A stretch of DNA of 64,000 bases from Sphaerolaimus hirsutus (Eukaryota > Nematoda > Chromadorea > Monhysterida > Sphaerolaimidae). Position numbers and translations under genes: made by a program. The notes below the pieces were generated by a model. The model ran no database searches, was not told where the DNA came from, and saw only the letters and a program-made list of their open reading frames with translations. The DNA lies in the NCBI GenBank assembly GCA_964036195.1, contig OZ038453.1:1116001-1180000 (forward strand), in the 5' to 3' direction. Positions 1,551-62,774 of the stretch are shown piece by piece (the stretch's first letter is position 1; each line of letters begins with the position of its first letter).

Positions 1551-1761
1551 GGAGGAAATGAAGTAAAAAATCAACAGTTTTCGAGTCAACATTTATTTGT
1601 CAATGTGCAGTTGCAATGCTATCACAATATGGAGAAAAAAACAGGCCGAGTTTTTTATTGCCAACTCAAACACATCTCAGACAAAAAAAAAACACATTTT
1701 GAAATGAAGTCAACAGTAAAAACGTAAGAATCATGTCATGGCATGAGGTGATAGTTTTGCC

Positions 1762-2096
1762 TGCTGTCACTCCCAGCCCTGTGAAATGCCTTGTAAAATG
1801 ACAAAATGCCCTGTAAACTGACAAATGCCCTTTAAAGGTGTAAAGTCACGTATTTCAATGTATTTCATGTAAAATTTCAAAAGATCAATAAAAAAGACAA
1901 TTTGATGTCTTCCTGGCATTTTCTATCACTTTTGACACTTTGCATGGCACTTAACATTTTCCAGGGCATGTTCCATGATTTCTTTACATGTTGCAAGACA
2001 TTTTACATTTTCCAGGGAATTTTACATGACTTTTGACACTTTCCATGACATTTGATATTTTATGGGCTATTTTATCTGGTCTGAGAGTGACACCAG
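1762..2096. mobile_element. Family-A element, intergenic copy
   Basis: CTGTCACTCCCAGCCCTGTG at left; CTGAGAGTGACACCAG at right, an acceptor-like terminus. Arms are built of ATGTAAAATGNC units. Confidence 0.65.
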
Positions 2097-2479
2097 TGCC
2101 AGATTAGAATCGTGTAATGAACAGATAAATTATTGCGCATAATTTGAAAAAGACCCTGCGACAAAGGGTATTTAGATCGGTGAATTAATTACAAAAAATG
2201 CTTATGTAATTCCACTCTCGAATAACTCCTCAGTCAAAAAATGAACGGCAGATACTATGCGCACAGAGTTAATTCAGTGTTGACAGGCCTGGCAGTGTGC
2301 CAAAGAAGACGGATACATGCATGCAAGATGCAACATTAGGAAAAGATGAAAATATTCATTGCTGTTCAACTATTTTATGTTCACATCTTAGCAATGGTTT
2401 TCTCATTAAATTCAAACAGCATATGTGAGTAGCCATTGGCACACTGCCACACTTAACTGTATATTATACCTAATCTACA
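2097..2479. other. Unassigned DNA
   Basis: AT-rich, with no reading frame bounded by splice sites and no clear repeat ends. Confidence 0.45.
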
Positions 2480-5955: not shown

Positions 5956-6318
5956 ACACCCTCAACTGGCCAGCTATCTACCTAACCATCAGAAGCAATG
6001 TTTTTAGAAATTTTGCCCCAATTTTAACTCAAAATCTCTTATTTTCATACTTTTTTTATCTCCACCACAATTAAAAATAAAAAGTAGAAACCAACTGGCA
6101 CAATTTGACCACTTTCAAAGTGGAATCCTTAAATGTCTCGGACTGTCTGAAAATCGTATCGAAGGGCATGAGAAAATCCAGGGAATTCTCGGCTACATCC
6201 TGCCCCAGGGCGCCCCTGGTGTCGATTCGATTCTGCAAGTGAAAAATGTCTACATTGGACGATAGACTGAGAAATCAACCGGAACACAGTCATGTGAAAG
6301 CCCGGATCTAGCGCCAAA

Positions 6319-6867
6319 TAGGGTTCAAACGGGATTGACTTTTCGGGATTGGGATCGGGATTCACTTTTTATGATTTCGGGATCGGGATTGGAGTTTCGG
6401 GATCGGGATTGTTTTTTTTGAGATTTCGGGATCGGGATCGGGATCGGGATTGGCCGGGATTGGGGTCACGGGATCGGGATTGGGATTGGCATTTTTCCGG
6501 GATCGGGATTGGGTTCTAGAGATAGAGATTTTGGCCATTTTTCTGGCATTCACAGTTGTTCATAAAGGTCTCAAAACACTGTTGGATGCCAGATAAGTGG
6601 CTTAAAATTGACACTGGGGGTTTGCATCCACTTTTTTGCATGCAAAAACGTCATTATTTCACTTTTTATAATTTCCAGTAATTTTTCCGGGATCCGGATC
6701 CCGGACTTGGGAGTTTCTCGGGATCGGGATTTGAAAATTTTCGGGATCGGGATTGGTGATTTTGGATTTCGGGATCGGGATTGGGGTTTTGGGATCGGGA
6801 TCGGGACTGGTAAATCCTAGAATTTCACGGGATCCGGGATCGGGATCGGGATCCCGTTTGAACCCTA
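6319..6867. mobile_element. R2 element with (GGGATC)n arms, 8-bp duplication
   Basis: TIR TAGGGTTCAAACGGGATTGA / ATCCCGTTTGAACCCTA. The flanking duplication is GCGCCAAA on both sides. The arms are runs of CGGGATCGGGATTGG; a 200-bp unique core (AAAGGTCTCAAAACACTGTT, GATGCCAG) is shared with the copies at 33678, 43134, 51817 and 56538. Confidence 0.92.
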
Positions 6868-13749: not shown

Positions 13750-13996
13750 TACCGTATTTCCTCGAATTACCCCCAGGGGGTTTATTTTTTCATAGTGAAA
13801 AGTTTGAGAGAAAAACGAGAAAAATGCAACAATAACCACCATTTATAAGTTTTTACAGCCTTATATAAGGATGTAGATGGTATAAACGATGTTCTAACGT
13901 AACACAGTAAGTGTTTTGAACGTCTGTTATGCATTCCTCGGACCACAAATTCATAGTGCCCATTTTGTGGGGGGGGTATTTCGAGGAAATACGGTA
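13750..13996. mobile_element. R1 element, subfamily with unique core
   Basis: Core (CCACCATTTATAAGTTTTTA; CGATGTTCTAACGT) is shared with the copy at 20994-21239, so these two are a young subfamily. Confidence 0.85.
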
Positions 13997-15575
13997 TGTG
14001 TATTCATATGCAACAAAATGCATTTTCATGTCATGAGATATGTAGCTGAAATTTACAATGAAAAAAGCGCGGCACGTAATGCAAACTTGTGAAATTTCAA
14101 GCACTGGATTATTAAGCATTTTATACAACTCTAAGGATAAAAATCTTTTTAAAGAAGTCATGTAACAAATACAAAATTGTTGAAATACTTAGCAAACTGT
14201 TCGCAATGCAAACATGCTATAAATAAACAAGAAATCTAACAAATACCAAATACCCGGGTACCAATGTCACTTTGTCAAGTGACTATACAGAGTTGTCAAA
14301 ACAAACTTTAAAAAAGAAGTAAAGTCTACATGAATAAAATTGTAATCACTTTCAAAACACAACATTTTACGTCATTGTCACTTGACAAAGTGCAGAAAAG
14401 TTGTCACTTGACACCATGCATGCAACTTGAATTGAGTCACACTGTAAACACTAGACTCCAAATTCAGCACACGCTGAATCAAGCAAATTTGGGAAGGCCC
14501 TGAAGCGCCCGACTGTATGAAATGACATGAAAGCTTGATTTTTGCGTGCTGTGTGGAGATGGAAAACACTTTTTTGGTAATTTTTTGAAAAAAAATATTT
14601 TAGAGAAAAGTGGTAGATTTACTTTTGTAGTGTTTCACCAAATAGGTTTTTGTAAATTTGCTTTCACAATTTGAACAAAAAACTAAATGGTTGAAAACTT
14701 TATCTTAGGAACATGTATGTCAAAGTACTGATAAAATACACATGTGCACAGTTTCATTGAATGTCATTATAGATATCTGAATTGGCTTACAGGGAATTCC
14801 AAATATCATCAACCCCAATAGAAATGTATATTAATTCATTAACATTAAAATGAAATTTCACACAAACGTTATTATCGCACTTACTATGTATATCAAAATA
14901 ATTTTTGATGTGATCATATTTATTTCTAGCCATATCCCATGACTACAGCGTTCAAAAAACTTAAAATAAAGAAATTTCTGGGTTTTCCAGAAAAAAAGTA
15001 ATAAGTTAATTGCATGGGGCCATTTCCACACTCCGTATGACATATCAAATCAACCCGAAATGTATGCCATTTTCCCAATTAATTTTACATACTCAACTTC
15101 TCAAAACAGAAATGTACCTGTGTGAGTTTTCTGTCCAAAATGAATGTGAAAATATTCAATATTTACATTTACATTTACACTTTCCAAAAATACCAGTACA
15201 CTCAATTCGCTTGCCAACTCTAGGCAAATTTGAGCACGAGTGCAGATGTGCTGTGTGCCACTGAAGAAAGTTCTTTATGTGTTGGCAATAAATTAGAGCC
15301 AAAGCCATCATACTCCGCAGTTACAGCTTTATTCAACTGACTGCACACTTTACAATGAAATCTACCATATTCCATCTGAATAAAAAGACAAAATATACTG
15401 TTTTCTGATCTGTTTATGAATTGCTCTACTCGGTGCAGGTGAATTTAGTGCACAATTTTCATTGCGGCTTTATTAATAAGAATACGGTAACATTCTTTGT
15501 ACAGGATTCAATCTGATGTATACACACTAGTGGGTCCAGGTGAAGCGTGAGACAAATCGAAATAAATATTTTACA
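13997..15575. other. Unassigned AT-rich DNA
   Basis: 1.6 kb without a recognisable gene or complete repeat. Contains GTCACTTGACAAAGTG-type stretches (14260-14410) that may be eroded hairpins. Confidence 0.4.
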
Positions 15576-15958: not shown

Positions 15959-16298
15959 TCCACAAATTTCAAAGAATGAATACCTATATCACAAATTTAC
16001 GTGTTTGCAGCTCGCAAATAGCCTTTACGTCAGAAGAGAAATTGGTGCAATCGTGCAATAACTTTAACAATTTTTTTGCAAATTACGTAAAATGTAGACA
16101 TTACCATTTTAAAAACATGGTGTGAAAAAAATCACCCGACGGAAATGTGAAAGGCAGAAAATTTGCACCCATCAGAAAACGGAACTGGAAAAAGTGAAAC
16201 ACCGGAAAACGGAATTTGGAAGGTGTAAATTGTGCCTACAGAAATGGAAAAGTTGACACCAGATACTACAGAGCCTTGCTACTTGATGGGAAATACGG

Positions 16299-16610
16299 GT
16301 GCCAGTTCCTCAAAACGAGAAGTGAGAAGTGAAATGGCAAAGGCGAATTGATATGGTAAATGCGAATTGATATGGTAAAGGTGAAGTGATATGGTAAAGG
16401 CGAAGTGAAATGGCACGTGAATTGGCCAGGGAAATGGCAAGTGAAATGGCAAAAGAATTGGCAAGTGAAATGGCGAAAGCGAAGATAAATTAGATTTTAT
16501 TTTTTTACTTCGCTTTTGCCCATTCCCTTGCCGTTTCACTTGGCCTTCACGCTTTCACTTCGCTTTTGCCATTTCACTTCTCACGTCTCATTTTGCGGAA
16601 CTGGCACCAG
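16299..16610. mobile_element. Family-B element with tandem interior
   Basis: GGTGCCAGTTCCTCAAAACG ... TTTTGCGGAACTGGCACCAG. The interior is GAAATGGCAAAGGCGAA-like tandem units in both orientations. The right end is an AG acceptor-like terminus. Confidence 0.8.
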
Positions 16611-16759
16611 GTCACTTTAAAGCTAAAAAATGACTCGACTGACTAACCCTCACTGCCCGCAACGATGCGGAGTTTTTTTCTGAACGAAACACGTGATTAA
16701 TAAAAAAAAGTTGAAGACATGATTTCAGACACACAACACCCGCTTTTTCATTTTTAAAA

Positions 16760-25605: not shown

Positions 25606-25729
25606 CCAGGGGGCACTCCCGTACATTAAAACCCCAGTTTTCTAAAGTAAAAACCATTTTAAAAACTTGGCATCTCACACAGCACTTTGCACGAGACTTG
25701 ACACTTTACAGGGTCTGGGAGTGCACCAG
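25606..25729. mobile_element. Family-A element abutting a B element
   Basis: CCAGGGGGCACTCCCGTACA ... CTGGGAGTGCACCAGG; a B terminus (GACCAATTCTTTGAG) follows at once. Confidence 0.7.
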
Positions 25730-26381
25730 GGACCAATTCTTTGAGTAGACAAGTGACTTGTAAGTATAAAAGAAATTACAAGTAAACTGATGAGTATACC
25801 CAGCCAGTATAACGGGTTTTAAGTGGACTTGTCACAAACAATGACGTATCCAGGGGGGGGGGGGCGGGTGGGCTCCAGCCCCCCCCCCCCCCGTTCCCGG
25901 GTGAGACATGAAAAAGTCGGTGAAAATGCAACTTCTGGTACCACTTTTGAACGTGTAATGGAAAAAATTTTGCGCGCAAGCGCGCATTTACCCTTTCTGC
26001 AGATGTATTGTTGGTAAACCGGTCCCCGTACTCTCATTTCACCATTTGTTTCACTAATTGGCGTGTTTTTTGCTCTATACGTATGTATATTTACATACAT
26101 ATAAGCGATTTCTGGCGCCAACGCCAACGCCAATGGCGTCATGGTGTTGCGCCTACGAATGGCGCCAGCGCCATGACGTCATTCGCTACCACGTAGGTAA
26201 AATTTTAGGGGGAGGGGGCTGAGCCCCCCCCCCCGTTCGCCGGGCTCCGTAAACAAGCAGCCCCCCCCGCTCAAAGTCACAAACAAGTAATTCCGTGAAT
26301 GAAAATACATGTCACTTATATGTACCTTATCACCACTTACCACTTGTCTTGACACTTGTCAACTTCTGGAATTGGCTCCAG
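25729..26381. mobile_element. Family-B element with R4 insertion
   Basis: Left GACCAATTCTTTGAGTAGAC, right AACTTCTGGAATTGGCTCCAG, the same acceptor-like terminus as the PPM1L intron. R4 lies inside at 25842-26275. Confidence 0.7.
25842..26275. mobile_element. R4 element (GACGTATCCAGG), right end eroded
   Basis: ATGACGTATCCAGG, G/C homopolymers, TTTGCGCGCAAGCGCGCA, CCAACGCCAATGGCGTC block, then AGCAGCCCCCCCCGCTCAAA. GTCACAAACA flanks both sides. Confidence 0.75.
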
Positions 26382-29208: not shown

Positions 29209-29409
29209 CCAGGGGGCAGTCCCAAGCCCTGTAAAGTGTAAAGTAAAGTGTCAAATGTAAAGTCTAATGCAAAGTAAACTGTCAAATGTCATGCAAAGTT
29301 CAGTAATAAAATCTTTTTCTTTTTTGTTTTGATTGACACTTTACTTTGCATTTGACTTTACATTTGACACTTTACTTTACACTTTACAGGGCGTGGGACT
29401 GCCCCCTGG
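29209..29409. mobile_element. Family-A element, best-preserved intergenic copy
   Basis: Perfect ends CCAGGGGGCAGTCCC / GGGACTGCCCCCTGG, arms CCCTGTAAAGTGTAAAGTAA, centre TTTTTGTTTTGATTGAC. It serves as reference for the secernin intron 44676-44870. Confidence 0.9.
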
Positions 29410-29889
29410 GGCCAGTTCCGCAAGTGGAAAAGTTAAGAGTTAAAACATAAGAGTTGAGTAAAATGACAAATGGCAAGTTAAGAGTAAAGTTAAATGATAA
29501 ATGATGAGTTAAGAGACAAGAGTAAAGTTAAATGACAAATGATTAGTAAAGAGATAAGAGTAAAGTTAAGAGTCAAGCAAGTGTATCAAAATTTTATTTT
29601 TTCGTATCCAAGTCTTATTTTTTTGTATCTAAATCTTATGTTGTAAAATAAGATTTGGATACAAAAACACAAGATCTGGATATGAAAACAAAGATTTGGA
29701 TACACTTGCTTGACTCTTAACTTCACTTTTATCTCTTAACTAATAATTTGTCATTTAACTTTACTCTTAAATTTACTTTTCTCTTAACTCATCATTTATC
29801 ATTCAACTTTACTCTTAACTTGCCATTTGTCATTTTACTCAACTTTTAACTTTATACTCTCAACTTTTCCACTTGCGGAACTGGCCCCA
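29408..29889. mobile_element. Family-B element, best-preserved intergenic copy
   Basis: GGGCCAGTTCCGCAAGTGGA ... CCACTTGCGGAACTGGCCCC. Arms are GAGTAAAGTTAAATGACAAA units; centre ATAAGATTTGGATACAAAAA. Confidence 0.9.
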
Positions 29890-30083
29890 TGTATACTCTG
29901 CAGACACGATACTCTACAAACAGATAGGAGTTATGTCTTCGGCTGGCAGACGGCCAGCCGAGAACTTATGGAAGACGCGATGACGACGAAGTGATGACGT
30001 CGTGAAGACTACGTGATGGCGACGAAAGTGACATGATGGAGTGTTTCCTCTGGAAAAATGTACGGCGTAATGTCATCCGAGTA
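29890..30083. mobile_element. R18-like element
   Basis: TATACTCTGCAGACACGATA ... CATCCGAGTATA. Confidence 0.55.
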
Positions 30084-36061: not shown

Positions 36062-39000
36062 TCAATCAAGCTCAATCCCATCGGCGTGATCCCCGGCGCC
36101 ATTTTGACTTTTTGCATTTTTATTTTCCGACGCAGTTTTCGGTTCCGCTTCCGGGTACCCGTTTTTCGGCTCGTGCAAAATTCGGGGGCCGTATAAAAGT
36201 ATGTAAGCCGTGTGCCAGTCCCCGCCGCCAGAAAGTCTGTAAATTGTTTTTTAATGCCCGGGATTCCTTCATTGGGCCCCCACACACTGAATGTCAACTG
36301 AATTCGTGTCAACTAAATGTCAACTGAATTAGTGTCAACTAAATGTCAACTGAATTCGTGTCAACTAAATGTCAACTGAATTTAAGTGATACTGTGATTT
36401 CAACTTATCTATCTGATAGAGCATAGTTAATTTTACATCATGACACTTCATTTTCATTGTTCCTGTTAAGTGTGATGCTTTTTACAAACTTCTTGTTTTA
36501 TTCAATTGACACTGAGTTGACGCGAATTTGCCATGTCAACTAGTGTGTGTGGGCCCAATATATTCTTAAAATTGCCTTCCAACCTACAGGGTGATTTTGA
36601 CAAAAATACTGTTTTTACGTGACCATTTAGAAAATATATTTTTTTTAAACCTATTTAAACAACCTGCCCCAACCCCATCAGAAACTTTTCTTAAAAACGA
36701 GTTTAAAAAACATTCCCTTTAAAAACCTGAGCACATCATCTGCTTGCACCTGGGCGACAGTTTCATCATCACACATGAGCCAAGTGTCGTGTTTACCATC
36801 TTTGGAAGTGCGTTTCACCCACGCCACATAATGCCCAGATGTACTTGAACGACCCTTGTGGGTGAGAACCGCCTGGGAATGGGGGGGGGCGATATAAATG
36901 TAGATTTTGTGGAAAAATAGTGCAAAAAATGCACTGCCGATGGCGGGAACCGAACCCGCGTGTTCAGGTGGCGCGCAAGGCGATTGCATTGGCATAGCTT
37001 TAACTGTTATCACTTTAACTGTTATCATCTACCATGTTAGATAAAATACCGCAAGTGTACAATGACAGTAAAGTGGGAAGTAAGTAATGAGTTGTGAAAA
37101 ATAAATTTATAAAGTCACTTGCCGATTGGGTGCTTTGTCCAGAGACAAGCAAACTTATCAATAAGTAAAAAGTATTTTCATTTGTGAGTACTTTACAATA
37201 AAACTTTTCAATTACAGAAATTGCGTCAGGTGTTTGTAATTTGCACAGGGCGGGGCAAATTCGCACAGAAATAATTCAGCATCACCACGGAAATAACCGA
37301 AAATGCAGCAAACGAAAAGGAGCACAAACCTGCAGTTCATAAAATCCGGAATTATTAGAACCAGGGTCATCTTCAAATGAAAACGGTATCTGAATTTGCT
37401 CGATTTCATCCAAATCCTCACCAGCTTTTGCCTGTAATTTTTTTAAACTTTAAAAAGTGTTGTTTTATAAAGATTGTTTGAAATAGAATTTACATATAAA
37501 AGCGAGTGACTTATTTTTATACACATTTAGACCAATTATGTATTAATACTGATAGTTTAAGCGAATTTTTTGATCATTTTGACTCATATGTACTTATACG
37601 GAATTACATAAATTTGAATCAGTGCCAAGTTTTCATTCGCATTTGGCCGTGTTAAGGATAGCGCTGTCATGTAAAGTGTTAAAAGTATGTAAAATTTCCT
37701 GAAATGTTCACAAAATTTATTTCATAAAATAAAGATACAAAACCAGCTTGAAAACGATAAAAATACCAATTTCTTTCTGTCCATCTCAAAATCGTCGGCG
37801 CGCTTCAATCTGCTCCGCATGGGGATCAATTTCTGTTTCAATTCTTCCGTACAAAATTCGAACACATCCAGTGCCATCGTGAATTTCACGTCTTTCAGTA
37901 TTTTTGCGTTGATCTGTAAAAGAGAATGGTAGAATTTTGGATGTGAATATAATAAATAAGGAAAGTTAAAAGATGACAAGTTCAAGTGTCAAGTCTTTTC
38001 ATTTATTTACTACTGATAAGTTTACTTGTCACTTTTATTCTTACTTAACATTTGAATACCACTTTTCTTGTCACTTAACCAATTTAGAAATTGGAACTTT
38101 GCCAGTCAAAAGTCCCAAAGTCTCCTAACCCCAGATTACAGCACACTTCCTTGAAAAAAAAAATCAATCTAGATTTTTTCACCGAACAAACCTTCTCTTT
38201 TTCCTTGTAATGGAATCTCATTATTGTAATGGGCAAAAATGCGGGCAAGCGATCTAAAAGCGACTCCTTCGAATATAACGCGTCCCTGCCCAATTTTTCG
38301 CTACGTTTCGTGATTTCTTCGGTAAGGCGCGCCTGTAAAACGAAAATGGAACTTTTAAGTTGAAACTTTAAAAAAAACTGAAAAATAGCCCAGATGTGTT
38401 AGTGAAAATGGATAGCTCGGAAATTTGGTTCATCAAAATTGTAGAAGGAAATTATTTCCCCATAAATTAGGTAACTGGCCGATTTGGCAGTGGTTTAGGA
38501 CATGAAAAGTCGCTGAAATTGTTTGCATTGACTTCGTGATCTATTTACAGCGGGGGGGCTATCCCGTAAAATGCCTGTAAAATGTCATGTAAAATGACAC
38601 ATGAAATGTAAAATTTATCGCTGAATTTTTGACATTTTAGATGACATTCGACACTTTACAGGTGCGTGACTGCCCCGTTGTGCCAATTCCACAAATATAT
38701 AAATGATAAGAAAGGTAGTACATAAGCTGAGGTAAGTCACATCACGAGTAAATCCCTTCATGATAATACTAGTCACTTTCGAGCTCACTTGTCAAGTCAC
38801 TTGACCAGGGGTATCTTGAATTTTGACCCTCCGAGTGGTTGGATAGATAGCAAATCGCTCCTCCGGAGGGATAGATAGCTGAAAAATTTTCTGGGGGGGT
38901 TGGGGGGGGTGTGGGGGGGGTGTGGGGGGGGGGGTTGTGGTGGTTCGATATATAGGCTTTTTCGGGCATAGAAGGAAGAAAAGGGAGAAAAATAGGTGTA

Positions 39001-44630: not shown

Positions 44631-47600
44631 TCACAGTTTTCGAAGGTTATCAGAATCATAAAGTGCTATTTCTTCCTGGGGGCAGTCCCAAGCCCTGTAA
44701 AGTGTAAAGTAAAGTGTCAAATGTAACATCAAATGCAAAGTAAAGTGTCAATCAAAACAAAAAAGAAATGATTTTATTACTGAACTTTGCATGACAATTG
44801 ACAGTTTACTTTGCATTTGACTTTAGATTTGACACTTTACTTTACACTTTACAGGGCTTGGGACTGCCACCTGGACACACTTAGCAAAAAGTTCACCATT
44901 TGCACCATAACTTGCATCACCATTTGTCACCGCTTCGGAACACTCATCAAAATATTTTTCTTGTATTTTCTTTTGCTTATTGATGATGTCATTTCTTGTA
45001 TTTCCATAGAGCAAATAGTTCTGATGGATTTTGTATAGGCCATGTCTCCTGTCTGGCAACCACAAAAATCTTGGTTTTCTCTGTAATTTTTCAATTTTAA
45101 AATTAAATTTAAATGTCATTTTTCCAAAAAAAATTGAATTACATTTTTACCTTTGCTGGATCATTTTCAATTTCTGGGCACAGAGCCAAATCACTCATTT
45201 TCATTTCCACAGCATTTTGAGGCAAAACAGCAGGCTTAAAAACTGATATTGATGGGTCTGGAGTCAATCCTACATCCTGTTTTGTGACCTGTCAAGTGAT
45301 CATTCATATGAAAAAGTTGCAAATTGTGATAAATATTGCAGACATTTCCAAATTTTCTTGCAGTGACAAGGAAAATATGTTTTAAACCTGCATTAATTGA
45401 TCACTTGACATAGCACTTTACAGGGTGTGGGACTGGTCCCTGGTGTGGCTGTGAAGAAATGCACTGGTGGAGTTTCACTGGCACTTAGAGGGATGACTGA
45501 AATCTGTAAAAATAACATTTTATTTTCAATTTTTCAATCAACTTCACACATATTTTAGGTATCAAGTTGTTCTCACTTGGCTTGCAACTGTAAGCATGGA
45601 CATTTTGAAATCGTGTCCACAACAAATGCCAGATTCCTTGTTGCCAAGGATGTTTGCAAAATCAGAGACTTTGAGTTTCCCTGTAAGTTGTGCTATGGCA
45701 ATGGAAAATATTGGGTCAAAAAATAAATGTAAAAAGTTTTTTTTTGCATTTGAAACAGAAACAAACTATTTTCCAAGCACTTTTCCATCAATGACTTTGC
45801 ATTTTCAGCCCTTATGTCTGAGGTATCTCTGGATTTCAGTTTCATTCTAACCACTTCCATCCAATTAAATGGTTCAGTACCATCCCATAATTTATTATTT
45901 AAACATATCTGTTTTACCCTTGCACTGAGCAATGTGTAGTTTGTGGTGATTGAATGGTGATTTGACAAATTGAAAATAGGCTCTGTAAAATACGAGTAAG
46001 TGGATTATACTTGAAAGTTTACATGTGTATAAAATATGAACCTGTGCTTTTTGAGGACAGTCCTATCCTCTCAGGTATTTATCATACCAGTGATTTTGAA
46101 ATATCATTTATAACATTGAAATAGATGTGTTGCTTTTTTGGTAAATATCCAAGCAATTTTAAACATTTTTTTAGAATAATTTATAACAACCTTTAACAAG
46201 TATAAGCTAAGCCAAGCTCTTTTGGGAAAGGACTCAAGTCATGAAACAAGTGGAAAAAAATGTGAAAAAACTTGTATTTTGAAATACAAAAGGTGTAAGA
46301 ATCTTCAACACTACCATCAATCCTTCTAGCAGCCCAATGCCTGCCAGCAGTCTCAATCAGCCAACAATCCCCCAGCCTGTCAGCTGCCACAATGCCACAA
46401 TCATATGAGCCAAAATGGAAGCTGAATTCTGACATTGCACCACCCTGGCCATGGATTTCTAGCAGCTCACCTATTGTTTCCACTGCCTCATGTGAGCTTT
46501 TGCACCTTTCTAGTGATAACCTGTGAGGTTTTCAGGGTGGTTACAGATAAATAAAAATAATATTTATGAAAAAGGCTATATGAAAAATACATGTATAATA
46601 CAAACCTGACAAAATCAACATCTAATAAATACTCTTTTTCATCAGTGTAATCTCTCAAATTTGAGTAAAGTGCCACAGTCATCACAGTCAATCCAAACTG
46701 ATTTGAACCCATTTCACAGCCCCACTGCCCTCCAGTCCTTGGGGCACTCCCAGACCCTGTAAAATAGCCTATAAAATGTAAAATGTGTCAACAGGTGTCA
46801 TGGAAAATGCTTGGAAAATGATGAAAGTTTTCCATTGTACATGACTTTTGACACTTTACATGACATCTTACATTTTACAGTTCATTTTACAGGGTATGGG
46901 AGTGACACCTGGACATAACCAATGCATTGGTGTGTGCAACTTGAGGAATGCTTATGTAGGTGCACTGAAAAAGTGGCTTTCTGTATGAGGAAAAACAATT
47001 GAAATACCGTATTTCCTCGAAATACCCCCCTTGAATTAACCCCACCCCCCTCTAAATACCCCCAGGTGTTTTCGAGCTGAGGAAAAATCCCCCCCTCGAA
47101 ATACCCCCAGGTGTTTTCAAGCTGTGGAAAAATGACCCCCCTCCCTCGAAATACACCCCGTCTGGAAAAAGGTACATCATGTATAGTGATGGAAAAAGCG
47201 CCAGGACTTTGGCGCCAAGCGCCAAAAGCGCCATGGCGCTTTTCCGAACCCCAGCGCCAAGCGCCAATGGCGCCAGAGCAAAATGGCGCCAAGCGCCAAA
47301 AGCGCCATGGCGCTTTTCTAGACCACGGCGCCAAGCGCCAATGGCGCCAGAGGATATTGGCGCCAAGCGCCAATAGCGCCAGCGCCAAAAAATTTTTGCT
47401 TCTCATATATGCAGCCATGCTGATGCACTGCTATTAATTTGTTTTTGGCGCAAGATAAAAGTCATAGTTAACTGCAGTCACTTTTGTTCTTTTTGTCTTG
47501 ATATTTTGCAGCTGGGTGTTTGGGCTTAAGTATAGCACACCATCTGTAAAAAGTGCTAAGATTTTTTAGCTGTTTTTTAAAATTCCTTTTGAATTTAGTT

Positions 47601-49386
47601 GTTTTTTCCCAAAAATAATTTTCAAATGAAGTTTTCAATTTAAAAAAAAATACTTTTGATTTTTCTACAAGAGTATTGCAGTTTCGAGTTTTGCTAGTCA
47701 CTTTTGAACATAGGATTTTGAAGTTTCAAATTTTGGATTGCTATTGTTGGAATGGCTTCAGAAAGTGATTCCACACCCTGTAAAATCAAGTGTCAAATGT
47801 CAATAAGTAAATGTGATGTAAAATGTTAATCAAAATAAAAAAATAAAATTTTGATTGAACTTTTGACATTTCGCATGATACCTAACAAAGTTGTATTTAT
47901 GAAATATTGGATGATGTTTATTACTCAACTTCACACTTTTCAGGGTCCTTTGACCCGGCTCAAACAAAACTGCAAGGAACGAGCTCAGTATAGCGATTGA
48001 GCTAAAACCTATGTGAAGAGTGTTACGAGTCTGATGAATAGTCACATAAAGTCTTACATAATTCTGATTAGATGGGACAAATGTTGAATACCCATGCAAT
48101 CACAAGGAAATTGTTTATAAAGTAATCAAGAATAGGGTATATTGATCCGGGAATACACTGACAGTAGCACATATACTTACGTAAATTATACTTAACAGGT
48201 CTTTCTGCATAAAATAATGATGAATTTTGAGTAAACTTCATGGCGCTTTTTTGGCGCTTTTTAAAACACTAGCGCCAAGCGCCAATGGCGCCACGGAGTC
48301 ATAGCGCCAAGCGCCAAAGGCGCCATGGCGCTTTTCCAAACCCCAGCGCCAAGCGCCAATGGCGCCACAGCAAAAAGGCGCCAAGCGCCAAAAGCGCCAT
48401 GGCGCTTTTTGCTTTGGCGCTAGCGCCAGGCGCCAGCGCCATGGCGCTTTTCCATCACTAATCATGTATATAAAGTACATGATGTATTCATTGATGTAAA
48501 TTTGCATCGCAGCGACACATAGACTAGTGTATGTGTACCTATCTACGTTGATATGTATAGAAATATCTTGTGAGGTCACCTTTATCACTGTTTTGGGTAC
48601 GTCAAAACCCATTCTTTACTACCACCCTTCACGAAAATTTCTGGCGAAATAATAAACCCCCCCCCCCCCTCGAAATACCCCCCTCAAAATTACCACTCTG
48701 AAAAAATAAACCCCCCTGGGGGTATTTCGAGGAATACGATATGTGGAAAAATTCCGCACACAGACAAATTCAGTGTAAAGTGACAAGTTTCATATTTTTA
48801 CATGTTCACAGGGCAGCTGGAATTTTACTAGATCTCACATTTCTTAAACATTTTAAAAGCATCTTAACACATTAGATTTTTTGAATGACTTGACATCTTC
48901 TAATGCAACACTTAGCGGTGAATCTAAAACAAAGTTGCAGAAATTAGCACTTGACAAGATACTTAACCGTGACCAGAACAGGTGCCGGTTCCGCAAGTGG
49001 AAAAGTTAAGAGTTAAAAGTTAAGAGTTGAGTAAAATGAAAAATGATAAGTTAAGAGTAAAGTTAAAAGTTAAGAGTTGAGTAAAATCATTTGTCGTTTT
49101 ACTCAACTCTTAACTCTTAACTTTACTCATAAAGTGTCATTTGTCATTTTACCCAACTCTTAAGTTTTAACTCTTAACTTTTCCACTTGCTGAACTGGCC
49201 CCTGGTAGGTCAAAAACTCACATCAAGCATGTCACCAATACCAAAATCTTTCTGTGGAATGTAAACTACCTCATTGACACTCCACAGAGGCAAATCTGCA
49301 TTTTTTGCAATTAAAATGCAATTATTCTCTGTCACTGGGGGTTGTGCTAAAATTATGTCACACTTGTGAGTTTCTGGTAGGGACAT
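44631..49386 (-). CDS. SCRN: Secernin (peptidase C69-like), 10 exons, complete
   Basis: Secernins are N-terminal-nucleophile-type relatives of dipeptidases (family C69); mammalian SCRN1 affects secretion, but the activity is unsettled. Exons: 49386-49222, 46964-46909, 46737-46606, 46520-46315, 45982-45767, 45680-45577, 45503-45434, 45257-45151, 45080-44871, 44675-44631. Phases run 0,2,2,1,1,0,1,0,0; 436 aa with a TGA stop (SCRN1 about 414). Seen: KCD with the candidate nucleophile Cys9; EVVYIPQ; CTYISIPQVAHTNALVMS; WGCEMGSNQFGLTV; GQGG then DCWLIETAGRHWAARR; NLSNHHSITT; LWDG; ILGNKESGICC; PVHFFTATP; PSISVFKPAV; KPRFLWLPDRRHGLYKIHQ. These match the secernin order throughout. Three of the nine introns are built from hairpin elements (separate entries). 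The exon-7 donor is uncertain by 6 nt. The stop lies 374 bp from the USP14 start. Confidence 0.9.
44676..44870 (-). mobile_element. Introner: family-A hairpin forming a complete secernin intron
   Basis: This 195-bp intron is exactly one family-A element. The donor CAG|GTGGCAGTCCC is the element's 5' terminus; the acceptor GGGACTGCCCCCAG|GAA is its 3' terminus. Its arms (CCCTGTAAAGTG...CACTTTACAGGG) pair. It is near-identical over most of its length to the intergenic copy at 29209-29409. Removing it joins LFAKCVQ to EEIALYDSDNLRKL-stop in phase 0. Confidence 0.88.
45258..45433 (-). mobile_element. Hybrid introner (A-type 5' end, B-type 3' end) in secernin
   Basis: The 5' side reads CCAGGGACCAGTCCCACACC then CTGTAAAG (family A); the 3' side ends GTAGGATTGACTCCAG, like the B terminus GTAGAATTGGCTCCAG of the PPM1L intron. 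At the family-typical junction (after CCAG, 45440) the intron would begin GGACCA, not GT. The nearest in-phase GT is 6 nt inside (45433), which adds two residues. Joining at 45440 would give TATPDPSISVFKP, identical in spacing to human secernin. Confidence 0.72.
46738..46908 (-). mobile_element. Introner: family-A hairpin forming a complete secernin intron
   Basis: 171 bp. The donor is TCCAG|GTGTCACTCCC and the acceptor GGGAGTGCCCCAAG|GAC; the arms ACCCTGTAAA and TTTACAGGGT pair. Splicing at these termini rejoins ALVMS-R-TGGQWGCEMG in phase 2, the conserved secernin WGAEMG region. Confidence 0.86.
47005..48742. mobile_element. R1 element split by R3 in secernin intron 1
   Basis: Left TACCGTATTTCCTCGAAATA (47005-47160) and right GGGGTATTTCGAGGAATACG (to 48742). 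The R3 insertion 47184-48461 lies between them. Confidence 0.65.
47184..48461. mobile_element. R3 element, long copy (1.28 kb), 8-bp duplication
   Basis: TAGTGATGGAAAAAGCGCCA ... GGCGCTTTTCCATCACTA, flanked by ATCATGTA. It has (GCGCCA)n only at the two ends and 0.8 kb of other DNA in the middle, including family-A-like stretches around 47755-47960. Confidence 0.85.
48979..49205. mobile_element. Family-B element in secernin intron 1
   Basis: CAGGTGCCGGTTCCGCAAGT ... CTTGCTGAACTGGCCCCTGG; stops 17 bp from the exon-1 donor but is not the splice boundary. Confidence 0.85.
49222..49386 (-). CDS. SCRN: Secernin exon 1 with candidate nucleophile Cys9
   Basis: 55 codons starting MSLPETHKCDIILAQPPV and ending FGIGDMLD at a strong GTGAGT donor, phase 0. 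In family C69 the Cys-Asp pair follows a short leader that is removed to expose Cys; here the leader would be MSLPETHK. The next exon is 2.26 kb away because intron 1 holds nested repeats. No in-frame upstream ATG gives a better fit. Confidence 0.85.
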
Positions 49387-51389: not shown

Positions 51390-51816
51390 GAAATGCACTG
51401 AAATGCTTCATCCTTCAGTTGTGGTTTTGCAGGACTTTTTGCATACGTAAATAAATTTACCTGAAAAATAGTATTTATTGACTTGGCAAAAATTTCCTGA
51501 CGTTTGTTTGTTTTCTTTTGATCAATTATGTATCTGGTTTAATGCCTCGCATACTGGATTAAACCGGACATTATTTATTTTTATATTTTCTTGTTATTAG
51601 TTTTGTGTAAAAATAACTACTGACAAATTTCGGATATTTTTTATTGCTGTGTTTCACTAAAATCTGTTTTTCAGGCTAAATTTAGAAGTTTTTTATAAAT
51701 GTGTCTGCACATAGTTTTCAACTGAAATTTCGAAAACTCATTTATAATCAATGAATGCACTTGAGTTGACGGGAATGAGTTATTTTGAACCTCTGTAAAC
51801 TGTAGGTGACGGCAAC

Positions 51817-52309
51817 TAGGGTTCAAACGGGATTGACTTTTCGGGATCGGGATCGGTATTCACTTTTTGAGATTTCGGGATCGGGATTGGCCGGGATTGG
51901 GGTCACGGGATCGGGATCGGGATTGGCATTTTTTCGGGATCGGGATTGGGGTCTTGGGATAGAGATTTTCGTCACTGTTCTGGCATTCACAGTTGTTCAT
52001 AAAGGTCTCAAAACACTGTTGGATGCCAGAAAAGTGACATAAAATGGACGCTGGGGTTTTGCGTTCACATTTTTGCACGCAAAAATGTCATTTTTTCACT
52101 TTTTATAAGTTCCACTATTTTTTCCGGGATCGGGATCCCGGACTTGGGAGATTCTCGGGATCGGGATTTGAAAGTTTTCGGGATCGGGATCGGGATTGGT
52201 ATTTTTGGATTTCGGGATCGGGATTGGGGTTTCGGGATCGGGATCGGGACTGCTAAATCCCGGAATTTCACGGGATCCGGGATCGGGATCGGGATCCCGT
52301 TTGAACCTT
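51817..52309. mobile_element. R2 (GGGATC)n element, 8-bp duplication
   Basis: TAGGGTTCAAACGGGATTGA ... GGGATCCCGTTTGAACCTTA, flanked by ACGGCAAC. Confidence 0.92.
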
Positions 52310-57500: not shown

Positions 57501-60500
57501 GACGGCCAAAACTTGGTGTGCATGTAAACCCAGTGTGCATGTAGACCCCTTGCTTCGGGGGCCAGGTACATATCCAGGATTTATGAGCATGGTGTATGTT
57601 TGTTTACTGAGCCTGCTGTATGGGAGGGGGATTCAGCCACCCGCCCTAAAAGTTTACTTACATGGTGATGAAATGGCATCATGGTGCTGGCTCCATTGGC
57701 ATTGGTGCCAAAAATCTCTGATATGTATGTTTATACATGTACATAAAGAGAGACTGGCACCCCAGTTGCTGTATTTTTTGAGAGAATTACCAGTACGCTT
57801 ACCAATGTACTTCTAAAATATCAGTGTGATGGAAAAATGTGGGAAAATGGGCCTACATGCGCACCAGGTTTACATGCGCACTGGCACAGACCCCCACAGA
57901 CTGCTGTATATGTATTTGACATACATATACACATTTTAGGTGGGATCGTGAACACATGAGGCTGCGCGACCGGTGAGATGAAATCACCGGTCGCCTGAAG
58001 CAAGAATTGCGCGCTTGCGCGCAAAATTTTTTGACAAATGACCCTAAAATTGATGCCGGAAGTTACATTTCAATGCATATCCCTACTCTCACCCAGGAAG
58101 GGGGGAGGCGGCCGATTTTTTTATAAGTTCAGTTCGGTTCTTTAGTTCGGTTCCGGGTCTAAGTGCCGGTTCTCGGTTCCGGTTCGGGTATTTTTTTCGG
58201 TTCCGGTTCTCGGTTCTCGGTTCCAAAATTGTGCTCGGTTCTCGGTTCGGTTCGGTTCGGTTCGGTTCGGTTCCCCAACCCTACCCAACAATATGGCCGA
58301 AATACCCACACCCGAAATTCCAATAGCCAATACCCATCTATGGGTATTGCATACTCCAAACTTTCAATTGCGATTATCTCAAAATCGATTTTTTGTAGAT
58401 CGGTACTTTTAGAAGCACACCCTTCAAATACACATATGCTTCGTGCCGACCTTGCACATACCACAATATTTTTTCAACACTACAGCTTCATTTGCAACAT
58501 TATTCAGCACTTTTACATTTGCACGTCGTAGGTGGATTCGTGAGCAAACTTTGAATTGGGACGGGAACCAGTTGACATTTCGTGTCCTTGGTAACTAGTC
58601 TGTGTTGGGCCATTTTCGTGAGCTTTTGCGCATCTAAGTTCCCAAAATTATGCCTCGGGGGTAGAAAAATAGATATCTGGGGCGTTTGGGGGAGGGGTAA
58701 TCCCTCAATCCCAATACTGAAACCATGTTGGATACATTACCCCTCAATTTTTTTTAAAAACAATACCCCCCTTACTTAAACGTTCACGTTTGATTTTTTG
58801 CAGAACCTACGTTTTACGCTATGAAACGATAGTTACGATTTTGGTCCTATGGATGCTGTATCTTTACATTCGGTGGTACAGCGAAGCGGCCAGGTGAGAC
58901 ATTTTATTAGTATACTCGGCGGACCGCAAAGTATGCGTCCAAAATTATTTGTCTTGGTCGATAACGCGTGAGCTGGATACTTATGTACGCACTTTCACAA
59001 AAAGAAAAATATTTAAAAAAAGAAAAAGGCGGAGTCGCGTACAAACAAGGAATGTTTTTTCTTTTTTTTTGCTGCAATTATTTTTATTTTATTAATGATG
59101 ACGTCATGATGGAGTGTTTCCTCCGGAAAAATGTACGGCGTAATGTCATCCGAGTATATATATACTGTAACGCTGTATGAAGAGGGTTACCGTATTTTGG
59201 TGAATAAAGTCACGTGGAAAATTGTGCAACTAATTTACCCGTAGTGTCCGCAGTGAAATGCGATGGGTTTTGTTGTTAAAATTGGGTTTTAACTGGTTTT
59301 GTTGTTAAAATCTGGTTTTGTTGTTAAAATTGCAAATGGTAGATTTCGTTGCCTTTCATTTCATGTGAGTGCAATAAAGTGCGGCTTTCTCTTGTTAGAC
59401 AGTCTGAAAAAGCGAGCCAAAAAGCGTGCAAATTGTGAATCTGGTGCCAGTTCCGCAAATTGAGAAGTGAGAAGTAAAATGGCAAAAGTGAAGTGAAATG
59501 GCAAGTAAATTGGCAAAAGTGAAGTGAAATGGCAAAAGTGAAGTGAAATGGCAAGTAAATTGGCAAAAGTGAAGTGAAATGGCAAAAGTGAAGTGAAATG
59601 GCAAAAGTGAAGTGAAATGGCAAGTAAATTGGCAAAAGTGAAGTGAAATGGCAAGTAAATTGGCAAAAGTGACGTGAAATGGCAAGTAAATTGGCAAAAG
59701 TGAAGTGAAATGGCAAGTAAATTGGCAGAGGTGAAGTAAAAAGTAAAGATAAAAACATTTCTCTTCGCATTTGCTATTTTACTTCTCACTTCTCCATTTG
59801 CGGAACTGGCCCCTGGAAAGTGCGCAATCTTAGTATTGAGTGTAAGAGTGAGTTCTGGTGCCAATTTCGTATTTATCTGGATAAGTAATTAAAACTATCT
59901 TGAAGTGAGCAATAAAAAGTGAAACAGGGGTCTCCAAGATTTTGGCCCTCGCGGGGGTTGGATAGATAGCAAATCGCTCCTCCGGAGGGATAGATAGCTG
60001 AACATTTTTCTGGGGGGGGGGCTGGGGGGGCACAATATTAAGGCTTTTTCAAGGTTAAGAAGGCAGAAAGGGGAAAAATCGCTAATAATCAGTTAGAAGT
60101 AGCCAAAAGTAGCTTTAAAATGGTACAAAATAGGTATATCACCATGTATATAGCCGGAAAGCACGATTTTGAAGGTGAAAAACTATAAAAAGGTGCGAAA
60201 ATTAGTGATTTTGAGCGAAAATTGGGGCGAAATTTCTCAAAAACCACTCCAGATAGATAGATAGCTGAGCGATTTGGGGGGGGGGTCTTTTGGGGTAGTA
60301 GCCAAAAATTTTGCATCGGGATAGATAGATAGCTGGCCGATTTGGGGGGGGGCAGCCCCCCCCCCCCCCCTAGGAGACCCCTGAAGTGAAAATAAAAGTC
60401 AATTTATAAGTCAATTTATTTGAAGTTGAAGATTAAGTACTCCATTTACTTTACCTCTATGCTAATGCGCCCATTTCCGACATTTCAAATTTGCACATTT

Positions 60501-62774
60501 ATTTTGCAAACCCATTTAAATAGTTCTAAAATTCTTGATTTTTTTGCACAGAAATCCCGACAGCCTGAAACGGGATGGCAATTCTCCGTCAAAATCTTGG
60601 GTCAATTTTCCCGGTTTCACGACAGTTTTTGCATCGACATTTTCTCACCTTTTCGGCAGCTCCGAACACGTTCAAGCTTTTGAAGATTTGAAATCGAAAT
60701 TGAGTGAATTTTTCGACGATTTGACACAGGGAAAGGAGTTTCAGAGGGAGGCTTTTTCGCATGTGACAAAACAAGGTAAGTACTTTAAATTTCTTTTTTT
60801 GATAATTGTGCCGTCCGCTTCTAAAAGTCGATAACTTCAAAATTTCAAAAATTGTATTGTGCACGGAGTTTTCAGAACTCCAACGCAAATTTTCCGAATT
60901 TTTTCAGCGCCACTTGCCCCTTGTTTAAAGTGTCACATTTTGACACTTTTCGGACACTCCTTAATAATTTTCAAAACTCCACTTTTTGTGGAAACACACA
61001 CCAAGAAATGTGTTAAGTCAATGTGGAAAGAAAAGTCATATCGTTCCAAATTTAGACAGATTTCACAAGAAAATACAAAACAAAGAAAAACGGTATTTCT
61101 CCAAAATCACTTTTACCGTATTTCTTCTAATATAACGGCATACCTCCAATAGAACGGCACCTCCAATAGAACGGCAGGTTTTGGCACTTTTTTACACCCA
61201 CGAAAAGAATAGAACGGCAGCCTCCAATTGAACGGCATCTCCAATAGAATGGCAAGTAAAAAAGTTGACGAAAAAAAATAGAACGGCGCCGTTATATTAG
61301 AAGAAATACGGTAAAATAACCGAAACAATTTGTCACAGCGCCGTCACAAAGCTGGGAGGCGTCCGGCCATAATTGGGCGGTTTATGCGAGAACTGGCGCC
61401 AGATTGTCTATGGAAGACCGGTTTGAAATATTGCACAGCGACCAGTTTCAATTTTTCGGCGTTTATGATGGACATGGTGGGGAGGTTGGTTTTTATATAT
61501 TTATGTTGATTTTTTTGGGTGTATTTTTTATAACATGGGGCGGTGACGCACTCTGTAAAGTATAAATTAGACTTGTAAAATGTCTATTACAAATACCGTA
61601 TATCCTCGAATAAGACCCCCCCACTCGAATAACTCCTCCCCCTTGAATAACTCCCCCTCAAAAACACTGACGAAAAAATAACTCCCCTGGGCTCTTATTC
61701 GAGGATATACAGTATAAAAGGATATTGTTACAGAACTTTTGACATTTTGCGTTTGACAAATTTGTATGACATGCGGGGGGTTCAGACAGATTTTGAACGT
61801 TAAAATGGGGGAAAAATTCCTAAAAAATCGCTCGTGATCACTAGATAGCTGTGCTATTCAGGGGGTAGTCGAAAATCTAACCTCGTTTTATTTACAACTT
61901 TTTCAAACGTTATTTAACCATAAAAGTCCATTATTCGCAGCAAGTATCGACATTCCTCGAGCAGTATTTCGGTAAAACGTCACTTTTTAACTACCGTAAA
62001 ACATTGGAAAAGAGATCCAATTTTGACAGTAAACAGTGGAATTCGATTGTCAGTGAAAGTATAGAGAATTTGGACAAAATGTGTATGGCTACGGCTCAGA
62101 GAGCCGCGTATTATGCTGGTTGGTTTTTTTAGAGGGAGTTTTTTATTTTTTAAGAAAAAAAAACAATTTCAATAGAAAGAAAGAAAATGTGATGAATTTT
62201 GCTGGCATTTATCTGTGCGAATTGTGTGTAGAGTCCGTTCGTATTTTTGTGTCCTATTTTTTTACGGTGGCAGAATTGACAGCACGGCAAATAGCATTGA
62301 AAAATATTTTTAAATATCAAAAAAATACCTCAAAATATAGAATCTATATTGATTTATATTTTTACAAGGATAGATATCTTTTTGTCAAGAGATTTTCTGA
62401 GATTATATTTGTTCAAAATCCCCATTTTTCAATACAAAATCACCCAAAATGAAATTTTTTCCATTTACCGACAAGCCTTTTCATTAATTGTTTGTGATTC
62501 CGATAAAGTTCTATGTTCTATGCCAAAGGTTTGTTATTCTACAAAGTTATTTTAACTAGTTATGCAAATGAAAATGTTTAACAAGCTTTCAGAGTGTGTT
62601 TACAGTCATTTTTAAACTCAAAACATTTAAACTTCTGCAGGCTCCACATTGCTGGCGGCTACGATTTTGGAAGATCGCTATTTGACAGTGTTTAATGTCG
62701 GAGATTCCCGAGCTATTTTGTGCGATAAAAATGGAAATTCCACAAGTGTTACTACTGACCACAAGCCGAATTTG
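54441..62774 (+). CDS. PPM1L: PPM1L-like membrane PP2C protein phosphatase, 5' and central exons (3' end beyond window)
   Basis: Metal-dependent Ser/Thr phosphatase of the PPM family; PPM1L is a membrane protein acting on stress-kinase and ceramide-transport targets (family knowledge). Exons: 54441-54544, 55753-56031, 58804-58893, 60552-60775, 61339-61484, 61941-62118, 62641-62774. Phases run 2,2,2,1,0,1, all GT..AG; 385 aa so far. Seen: a hydrophobic segment around residues 137-153 (TIVTILVLWMLYLYI) preceded by VLRYE, as in the PPM1L N-terminus; RLSMEDRFE (254-262); FGVYDGHGGE (272-281), metal ligand Asp276; FNVGDSRAILCDKNGN (358-373); DHKPNL. The last donor is GTATGT at 62775. The following family block (KRAGGFI, metal-binding DG and DN) is not in the window. 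The N-terminus is longer than in PPM1L and its true start may lie further upstream. Confidence 0.88.
54545..55752 (+). mobile_element. Introner: family-B hairpin forming PPM1L-like intron, with nested insertion
   Basis: The intron begins AG|GTGCCAATTTTGCAAGTGG and ends CCACTTGTAGAATTGGCTCCAG|. These are the inverted termini of family B, with AGAAGTGACA and TGTCACTTGT subterminal. A (GAACCG)n element (54886-55662, target duplication CTTATCAC) later inserted into it. Exon phases on both sides are 2, and the join reads RLST-S-PQRPKNQ. Confidence 0.82.
54886..55662. mobile_element. R2-superfamily element with (GAACCG)n arms, 8-bp duplication
   Basis: TAGGGTTGGGGAACCGAACC ... GAAAATTCCCAACCCTA, flanked by CTTATCAC. 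Inserted inside the family-B intron. Confidence 0.9.
56155..56425. repeat. Irregular tandem array of AAAAGTACCGATCTAC units
   Basis: Six or seven units 30-70 bp apart, each GTGCTT(CTAAA/TTTTACTATGG)AAAGTACCGATCTAC. A single inverted unit (GTAGATCGGTACTTTTAGAA GCACACCC) lies at 58397-58424 and marks the other end. Confidence 0.75.
56538..57113. mobile_element. R2 (GGGATC)n element, longest arms
   Basis: TAGGGTTCAAACGGGATTGA ... GATCCCGTTTGAACCCTA; TGTGGAT on both sides. Confidence 0.9.
57130..58283. mobile_element. R2-superfamily (GAACCG)n element with R4-like insert, 8-bp duplication
   Basis: TAGGGTTGGGAATTTCAAAA ... GGTTCCCCAACCCTA, flanked by CCCAACAA. An R4-like part (57568-58115, CATATCCAGGATTTATGAGC, GCGCGCTTGCGCGC) lies inside. 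Confidence 0.88.
58912..59160. mobile_element. R18-type element in PPM1L intron 3
   Basis: TATACTCGGCGGACCGCAAA ... CATCCGAGTATA. Confidence 0.6.
59441..59816. mobile_element. Family-B element with minisatellite interior
   Basis: CTGGTGCCAGTTCCGCAAAT ... CATTTGCGGAACTGGCCCCTGG. The interior is about ten tandem GAAATGGCAAAAGTGAA / GGCAAGTAAATT units. Confidence 0.88.
59925..60383. mobile_element. R5 element, 8-bp duplication
   Basis: CAGGGGTCTCCAAGATTTTG ... TAGGAGACCCCTG, flanked by AAGTGAAA. Confidence 0.92.
61114..61313. mobile_element. R1b hairpin in PPM1L intron 4
   Basis: TACCGTATTTCTTCTAATAT ... AGAAGAAATACGGTA. Confidence 0.8.
61339..61484 (+). CDS. PPM1L: PP2C exon with MEDR and DGHGG metal-site motifs
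   Basis: Encodes SWEASGHNWAVYARTGARLS, then MEDRFEI, LHSDQFQFFGVYDGHGGE. The glutamate and aspartate of MED and the DGHGG aspartate belong to the binuclear metal centre. It enters in phase 1, completing Ala233, and leaves in phase 0 at GAG|GTTGGT. A hairpin with TACCGTATTTCTTC ends (61114-61313) stops 25 bp before the acceptor. Confidence 0.9.
61594..61714. mobile_element. R1 variant, short copy in PPM1L intron 5
   Basis: TACCGTATATCCTCGAATAA ... CGAGGATATACAGTA. Confidence 0.75.
62641..62774 (+). CDS. PPM1L: PP2C exon with VGDSR motif, last exon visible
   Basis: Completes Gly341 then reads STLLAATILEDRYLTVFNVG, DSRAILCDKNGNSTSV and DHKPNL. The donor is TTG|GTATGT. A hairpin of the GGCCACAGGCCTATTTCGC type starts 14 bp after the donor. 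Confidence 0.9.

Follow-up and report, generated by a model that had tools for sequence, protein, structure and literature searches.

Can a transposon that inserts into an exon provide its host gene with a new intron? This question is raised by a secernin gene in the window studied here, i.e., the whole 64,000-nucleotide stretch of DNA from the nematode Sphaerolaimus hirsutus. The stretch contains a gap of 200 N, presumably left by scaffolding of the assembly. According to the original prediction, one intron of this gene is, over its whole length, a dispersed hairpin element of a family (family A) that makes introns in this genome.

The exons of the gene were located with secernin sequences (tblastn), from the first, near 49386–49213, down to the last, and those from the second onwards read as a single open frame when joined. 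The joined piece (387 residues, the first few of which may be intronic) matches Peptidase_C69 barely over the cut-off (23.7 vs. 23 bits) and is about 37% identical to animal secernins, the best identity among the named matches. Only two of the 162 combinations of exon borders that were tried give an open frame; both have identical borders for introns 2, 7 and 9, and the combination retained is the one supported by homology at exon 45680–45577. A tree built from 32 rows gives the window secernin no supported group and a branch of 3.07 changes per column, too long for the sequence to be placed; the gene is fast-evolving. The named matches of secernin and of DHDDS, another gene of the window, are animals except for one Chloroflexi row (for DHDDS, the best 120 of 7,992 matches, with a best identity of about 42%).

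Table 1. Coordinates of the secernin gene, of its element introns and of related elements in the window.
Feature	Position	Strand	Remarks
Two-ended decayed related element	1760..2097		
Two-ended related element	25606..25730	+	outside modelled genes; CCAGG on both sides, direct repeat 5/5
Intact dispersed family-A copy	29209..29409	+	outside modelled genes; GG/TG at the places of GT/AG
Family-B inverted-repeat element	29405..29891		ends CCWGG + GGCCAGTTCCGCAAG
Secernin gene	44632..49386	-	ten coding exons; intron 1 borders provisional
Secernin intron 9 (GT-AG)	44676..44870	-	195 nt; whole family-A element
Secernin intron 7 (GG-AG by homology)	45258..45439	-	whole decayed related element; 45257–45443 with ends
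Secernin intron 2 (GT-AG)	46738..46908	-	whole related element; 46737–46912 with ends
Family-B element	48978..49205		within secernin intron 1, away from borders

Intron 9 resembles the intact dispersed copy of family A over its full length and up to both splice sites (191/201 identical positions, 9 mismatches and 1 gap), the copy aligning in the sense orientation of the intron. With its CCAGG ends, the element in the gene spans 44675–44874 (200 bp); on the minus strand, it is flanked as AAG TGT GTC CAG|GTGGCAGTCCC...GGGACTGCCCCCAG|GAA GAA ATA (in wider context, GTGTCCAG|GTGGCAGTCCC...GGGACTGCCCCCAG|GAAGAAATAG), and its end 5-mers are direct repeats (5/5). The tips are complementary at 21 of 22 bases, and the predicted fold of the whole intron is a single long hairpin (−121.2 kcal/mol; z = −19.07), none of 200 shuffles folding as well. 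The alignment and the fold thus bear out both that this intron is a whole dispersed hairpin element and that the same element stands, with the ends given for it, at the place of the intact copy. The further claim that the GT and AG of the intron are the termini of family A holds by position but not by letter, the intact copy having other dinucleotides there, and the splice dinucleotides account for 2 of the 10 differences that separate intron and copy. Excision at the element tips joins LFAKCVQ in frame to EEIALYDSDNLRKL-stop, as had been foreseen, and the length of this junction is kept in all 155 homologs scored (162 aligned, the rest missing the site), homologs that come from similarity searches, include isoforms and near relatives, and are therefore not independent of each other. 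The E...Y pair of the last exon is kept in 143 of these 155 homologs.

Introns 2 and 7 are whole elements as well, but their full-length alignment to the intact copy is weak (136 identities and 45 gaps for intron 2, 127 and 35 for intron 7), and it is only by their ends and hairpins that we tie them to the superfamily. Intron 2, which runs CCAG|GTGTCACTCCCATACCCTG...CAGGGTCTGGGAGTGCCCCAAG|G, has 19 of its 22 tip bases complementary (hairpin z = −10.09) and end 5-mers that agree as direct repeats at 4/5 positions; its excision yields NALVMSR-TGGQWGCEMG, with the length kept in 159/160 homologs. For intron 7, which runs CCAG|GGACCAGTCCCACACCCTG...GGATTGACTCCAG|ACC, the corresponding values are 14 of 22, z = −4.72 and 4/5, and excision yields HFFTATP-DPSISVFKP (length kept in 158/161 homologs); if it is spliced at the tip, its donor is CCAG|GGACC, a single case inferred from homology. 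Judging from their sequences, introns 9, 2 and 7 belong to the same superfamily at three stages of decay, and the hairpin scores, falling in this order, suggest that age increases from intron 9 to intron 7. Altogether, three of the nine secernin introns, i.e., 3 of the 19 introns tabulated in the window, are copies of one superfamily from end to end, all in one gene, so that transposons seem to make new introns in this host genome. The proposal that family A makes introns is supported, at the level of sequence, by these three tip-to-tip introns and by homologs that are uninterrupted at each junction.

The 19 tabulated introns comprise nine from secernin, three from DHDDS and seven from a gene with a Pfam UCH match, which we take to be USP14; the names of the latter two genes rest on similarity searches (tblastn among them) and on that Pfam match. 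The 16 introns other than 9, 2 and 7 have 6–12 of 22 tip bases complementary (vs. 21, 19 and 14), with tip duplex energies between z = +2.0 and z = −3.1 (vs. −14.1, −8.8 and −4.7, respectively), and no element makes up any of the ten introns from DHDDS and USP14. Decayed relatives of the element ends are found at 38560–38680 (minus strand) and near 61535 (plus strand), inside introns and off the splice sites; one of the two host genes is USP14, the other looks by eye like a PP2C phosphatase, for which a Pfam search gave no confirmation. As a separate observation, donors read GTTTGT in 5/19 tabulated introns and GTAAGT in 0/19, which is unusual for the 5′ splice sites of an animal.

The window also holds a second inverted-repeat family (family B), with copies at 16295–16611 and 59440–59816 in addition to the two of Table 1. 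Its ends are CCWGG + [TG]GCCAGTTCC, such CCWGG-like ends being common to families A and B, and one of its copies adjoins the intact family-A copy so closely that a single CCTGG is common to both. None of these four family-B copies was located at a splice site. The end motif CCWGG[TG]GNC[AC][CG]T[CT]CC has nine exact matches in the window vs. 0.0 in ten block-of-two shuffles, a control that is generous, since the motif was drawn from the same ends that it counts. Among these nine perfect ends, the base that follows CCWGG is T in three, the donors of introns 9 and 2 among them, and G in six. Regarding size, the elements are in the range of MITEs (176–200 bp for the three introns, 125–487 bp for the seven two-ended A and B copies outside them), and from these lengths we judge them to be devoid of coding capacity. 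Neither a transposase nor an autonomous partner was detected by Pfam in ten of the 527 frames of at least 50 aa; Rfam at gathering scores returned no match, nor did a search of viral contigs with two element patterns or of the window with a longer element pattern, and among 10 of the 714 papers matched by a literature search on CCWGG transposons, none names CCWGG. Much of the non-coding DNA consists of dense dispersed simple repeats (e.g., 381–835, 2479–2873, 6312–6737, 51810–52174), with units such as G-runs with TATTTCGAGG and CGGGATCGGGATTGG units.

Our best reading is that these elements are a new member, in an animal, of an already known kind of introner family, and it is very probable that such a MITE-type family made the three secernin introns, with transposition, target-site duplication, splicing and the role of the hairpin as the steps that we infer. 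Briefly, MITEs (short, non-autonomous DNA transposons), here with long inverted-repeat arms, would insert at CCWGG. Insertion into an exon at CCAG(G/A) would leave CCAG on both sides, the first remaining the end of the exon and the second giving the 3′ AG of the intron, while the 5′ splice site would be formed by the G after the first CCAG and the base that comes next in the element end (T giving GT, G giving GG). In the transcript, the hairpin may juxtapose the two splice sites, and the spliceosome would then excise the element, leaving the protein unchanged. Applied to the three introns, this puts the 3′ AG in the far CCAG (which reads CAAG in intron 2) and the 5′ site at the G after the first CCAG, giving GT in introns 9 and 2 and GG in intron 7. 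Since the CCAG(G/A) of the junctions codes for residues that align with homologs, one copy should pre-date the insertion and the copy at the far end should be new; likewise, the junction lengths kept in the homologs (155/155, 159/160, 158/161) argue that one CCAG(G/A) is ancestral coding sequence, which removal of the elements restores. Because the palindromic CCWGG confounds direct with inverted repeats, a target-site duplication of 4–5 bp is only deduced. The copy at 25606–25730 does have a 5/5 direct repeat, but among the 7 two-ended A/B copies besides the three introns only 2 share the middle base of their end 5-mers in direct orientation, so that this duplication is unproven outside secernin. 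The introner reading also has against it that no transposase or autonomous partner turned up in the ten frames scanned, that all three cases are in one gene, with none among the DHDDS and USP14 introns tabulated, and that intron 7 requires a GG donor.

The latter requirement would disappear if the same introners were spliced at their 3′ tip but from an internal donor, i.e., the GTAAAG or GTAAAA found 18 nt inside the donor tip, which is in frame in introns 2, 7 and 9 and would add six residues net (CHSHTL at intron 2, GTSPTPY for D at intron 7, VAVPSP at intron 9). There is a precedent for such additions, one Aureococcus introner family adding four residues according to passages of Gozashti et al. 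(2022; PMC9860276). We nevertheless regard this variant as improbable, given that the junctions keep their length in the homologs counted above and that the internal sites fall within the stem of the predicted folds. As for internal acceptors, use of the TTTACAG in introns 2 and 9 would retain 19 nt and so disrupt the frame, whereas an AG 12 nt inside the tip of intron 7 would keep it; as far as the homologs can tell, conservation argues against additions from internal borders at all three introns.

The remaining explanations fare worse still. That the secernin is a pseudogene, in which the elements are plain insertions that were never spliced, would agree with its very long branch, yet we hold it to be highly improbable, for the open frame from exon 2 and the conserved C-terminus require the exact removal of all three elements. 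Nor do we give much more than a token chance to old introns in which elements later replaced the interior or landed at the edges: elements do occur within other introns, such as the family-B copy in secernin intron 1, but here both tips coincide with the splice sites three times over and no older intron sequence remains. A similarly slight chance attaches to reverse splicing, in which copies would have moved as spliced introns into CAG|G sites rather than as DNA transposons. In its favour, CAG|G resembles a proto-splice site, and both routes leave an identical trace where CCAG flanks both sides; but copies like the intact one end in CTGG instead of AG, and the inverted-repeat structure of the elements, with a CCWGG-like end on either side, recurs in family B.

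With MITE-type introners as the preferred reading, the secernin introns can be compared with known systems. Introners with TIRs and/or TSDs have reportedly been described in algae and dinoflagellates, by Huff in 2016 and by Roy in 2023, and Gozashti and colleagues reportedly published a further survey of introners later. An introner origin of introns has rarely been reported in animals, and a single gene in which three such introns have decayed to different degrees, next to a near-identical dispersed copy, would display the steps from transposon to intron. According to passages of the 2022 survey (Gozashti et al. 2022; PMC9860276), introners with TIRs and TSDs take splice sites from their target, copepods being among the hosts, and introners were found in only two animal groups, animals and land plants making up 835 of the 3,325 genomes. 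Like the algal and dinoflagellate introners presented there, the secernin elements are short, have inverted-repeat ends, make up entire introns and use a splice site that the target provides; unlike the examples in those passages (mostly protists), their arms span nearly the whole element and their ends are CCWGG. Similarly, the introner elements of the dinoflagellate Amoebophrya (Farhat et al. 2021; PMC7789003), as portrayed in parts of that paper, are hairpins with inverted-repeat motifs of 8–20 nt and widely varying splice motifs; they share with our introns the inverted repeats near the intron ends, the short direct repeats over the exon borders, the hairpin and the occurrence of non-GT introns, but here two of the three introns are GT-AG and the host is an animal.

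Finally, GA and GG donors are documented in the copepod Eurytemora affinis (GA 31 vs. GG 5 of 297 introns), where the introns that carry them are thought to be recent, AG is obligate before the donor and the third base is nearly always A (Robertson 2017; PMC5714493). The AG|GGA of secernin intron 7 is like these GG donors, as a single case for which we claim no membership in the class; unlike here, the main text of that paper proposes no transposon origin for the introns. A bolder generalization, which we consider unlikely, would be that non-GT donors of recent animal introns, such as these GA/GG donors, begin as the raw tips of inverted-repeat transposons targeting CCWGG. Insertion would first produce an AG|GN donor, whose last base depends on the end of the element, and GT would arise afterwards by selection. 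If this were true, introns 9, 2 and 7, together with the intact copy and its GG and TG, would represent stages of the path to GT. The secernin case also makes it possible to test whether rare GG donors originate from transposon tips. Elsewhere in the window, an open frame on the minus strand (13853–14188) is perhaps an IFT122 exon, its match to the zinc ribbon of IFT122 scoring 22.7 bits, below the cut-off of 27.
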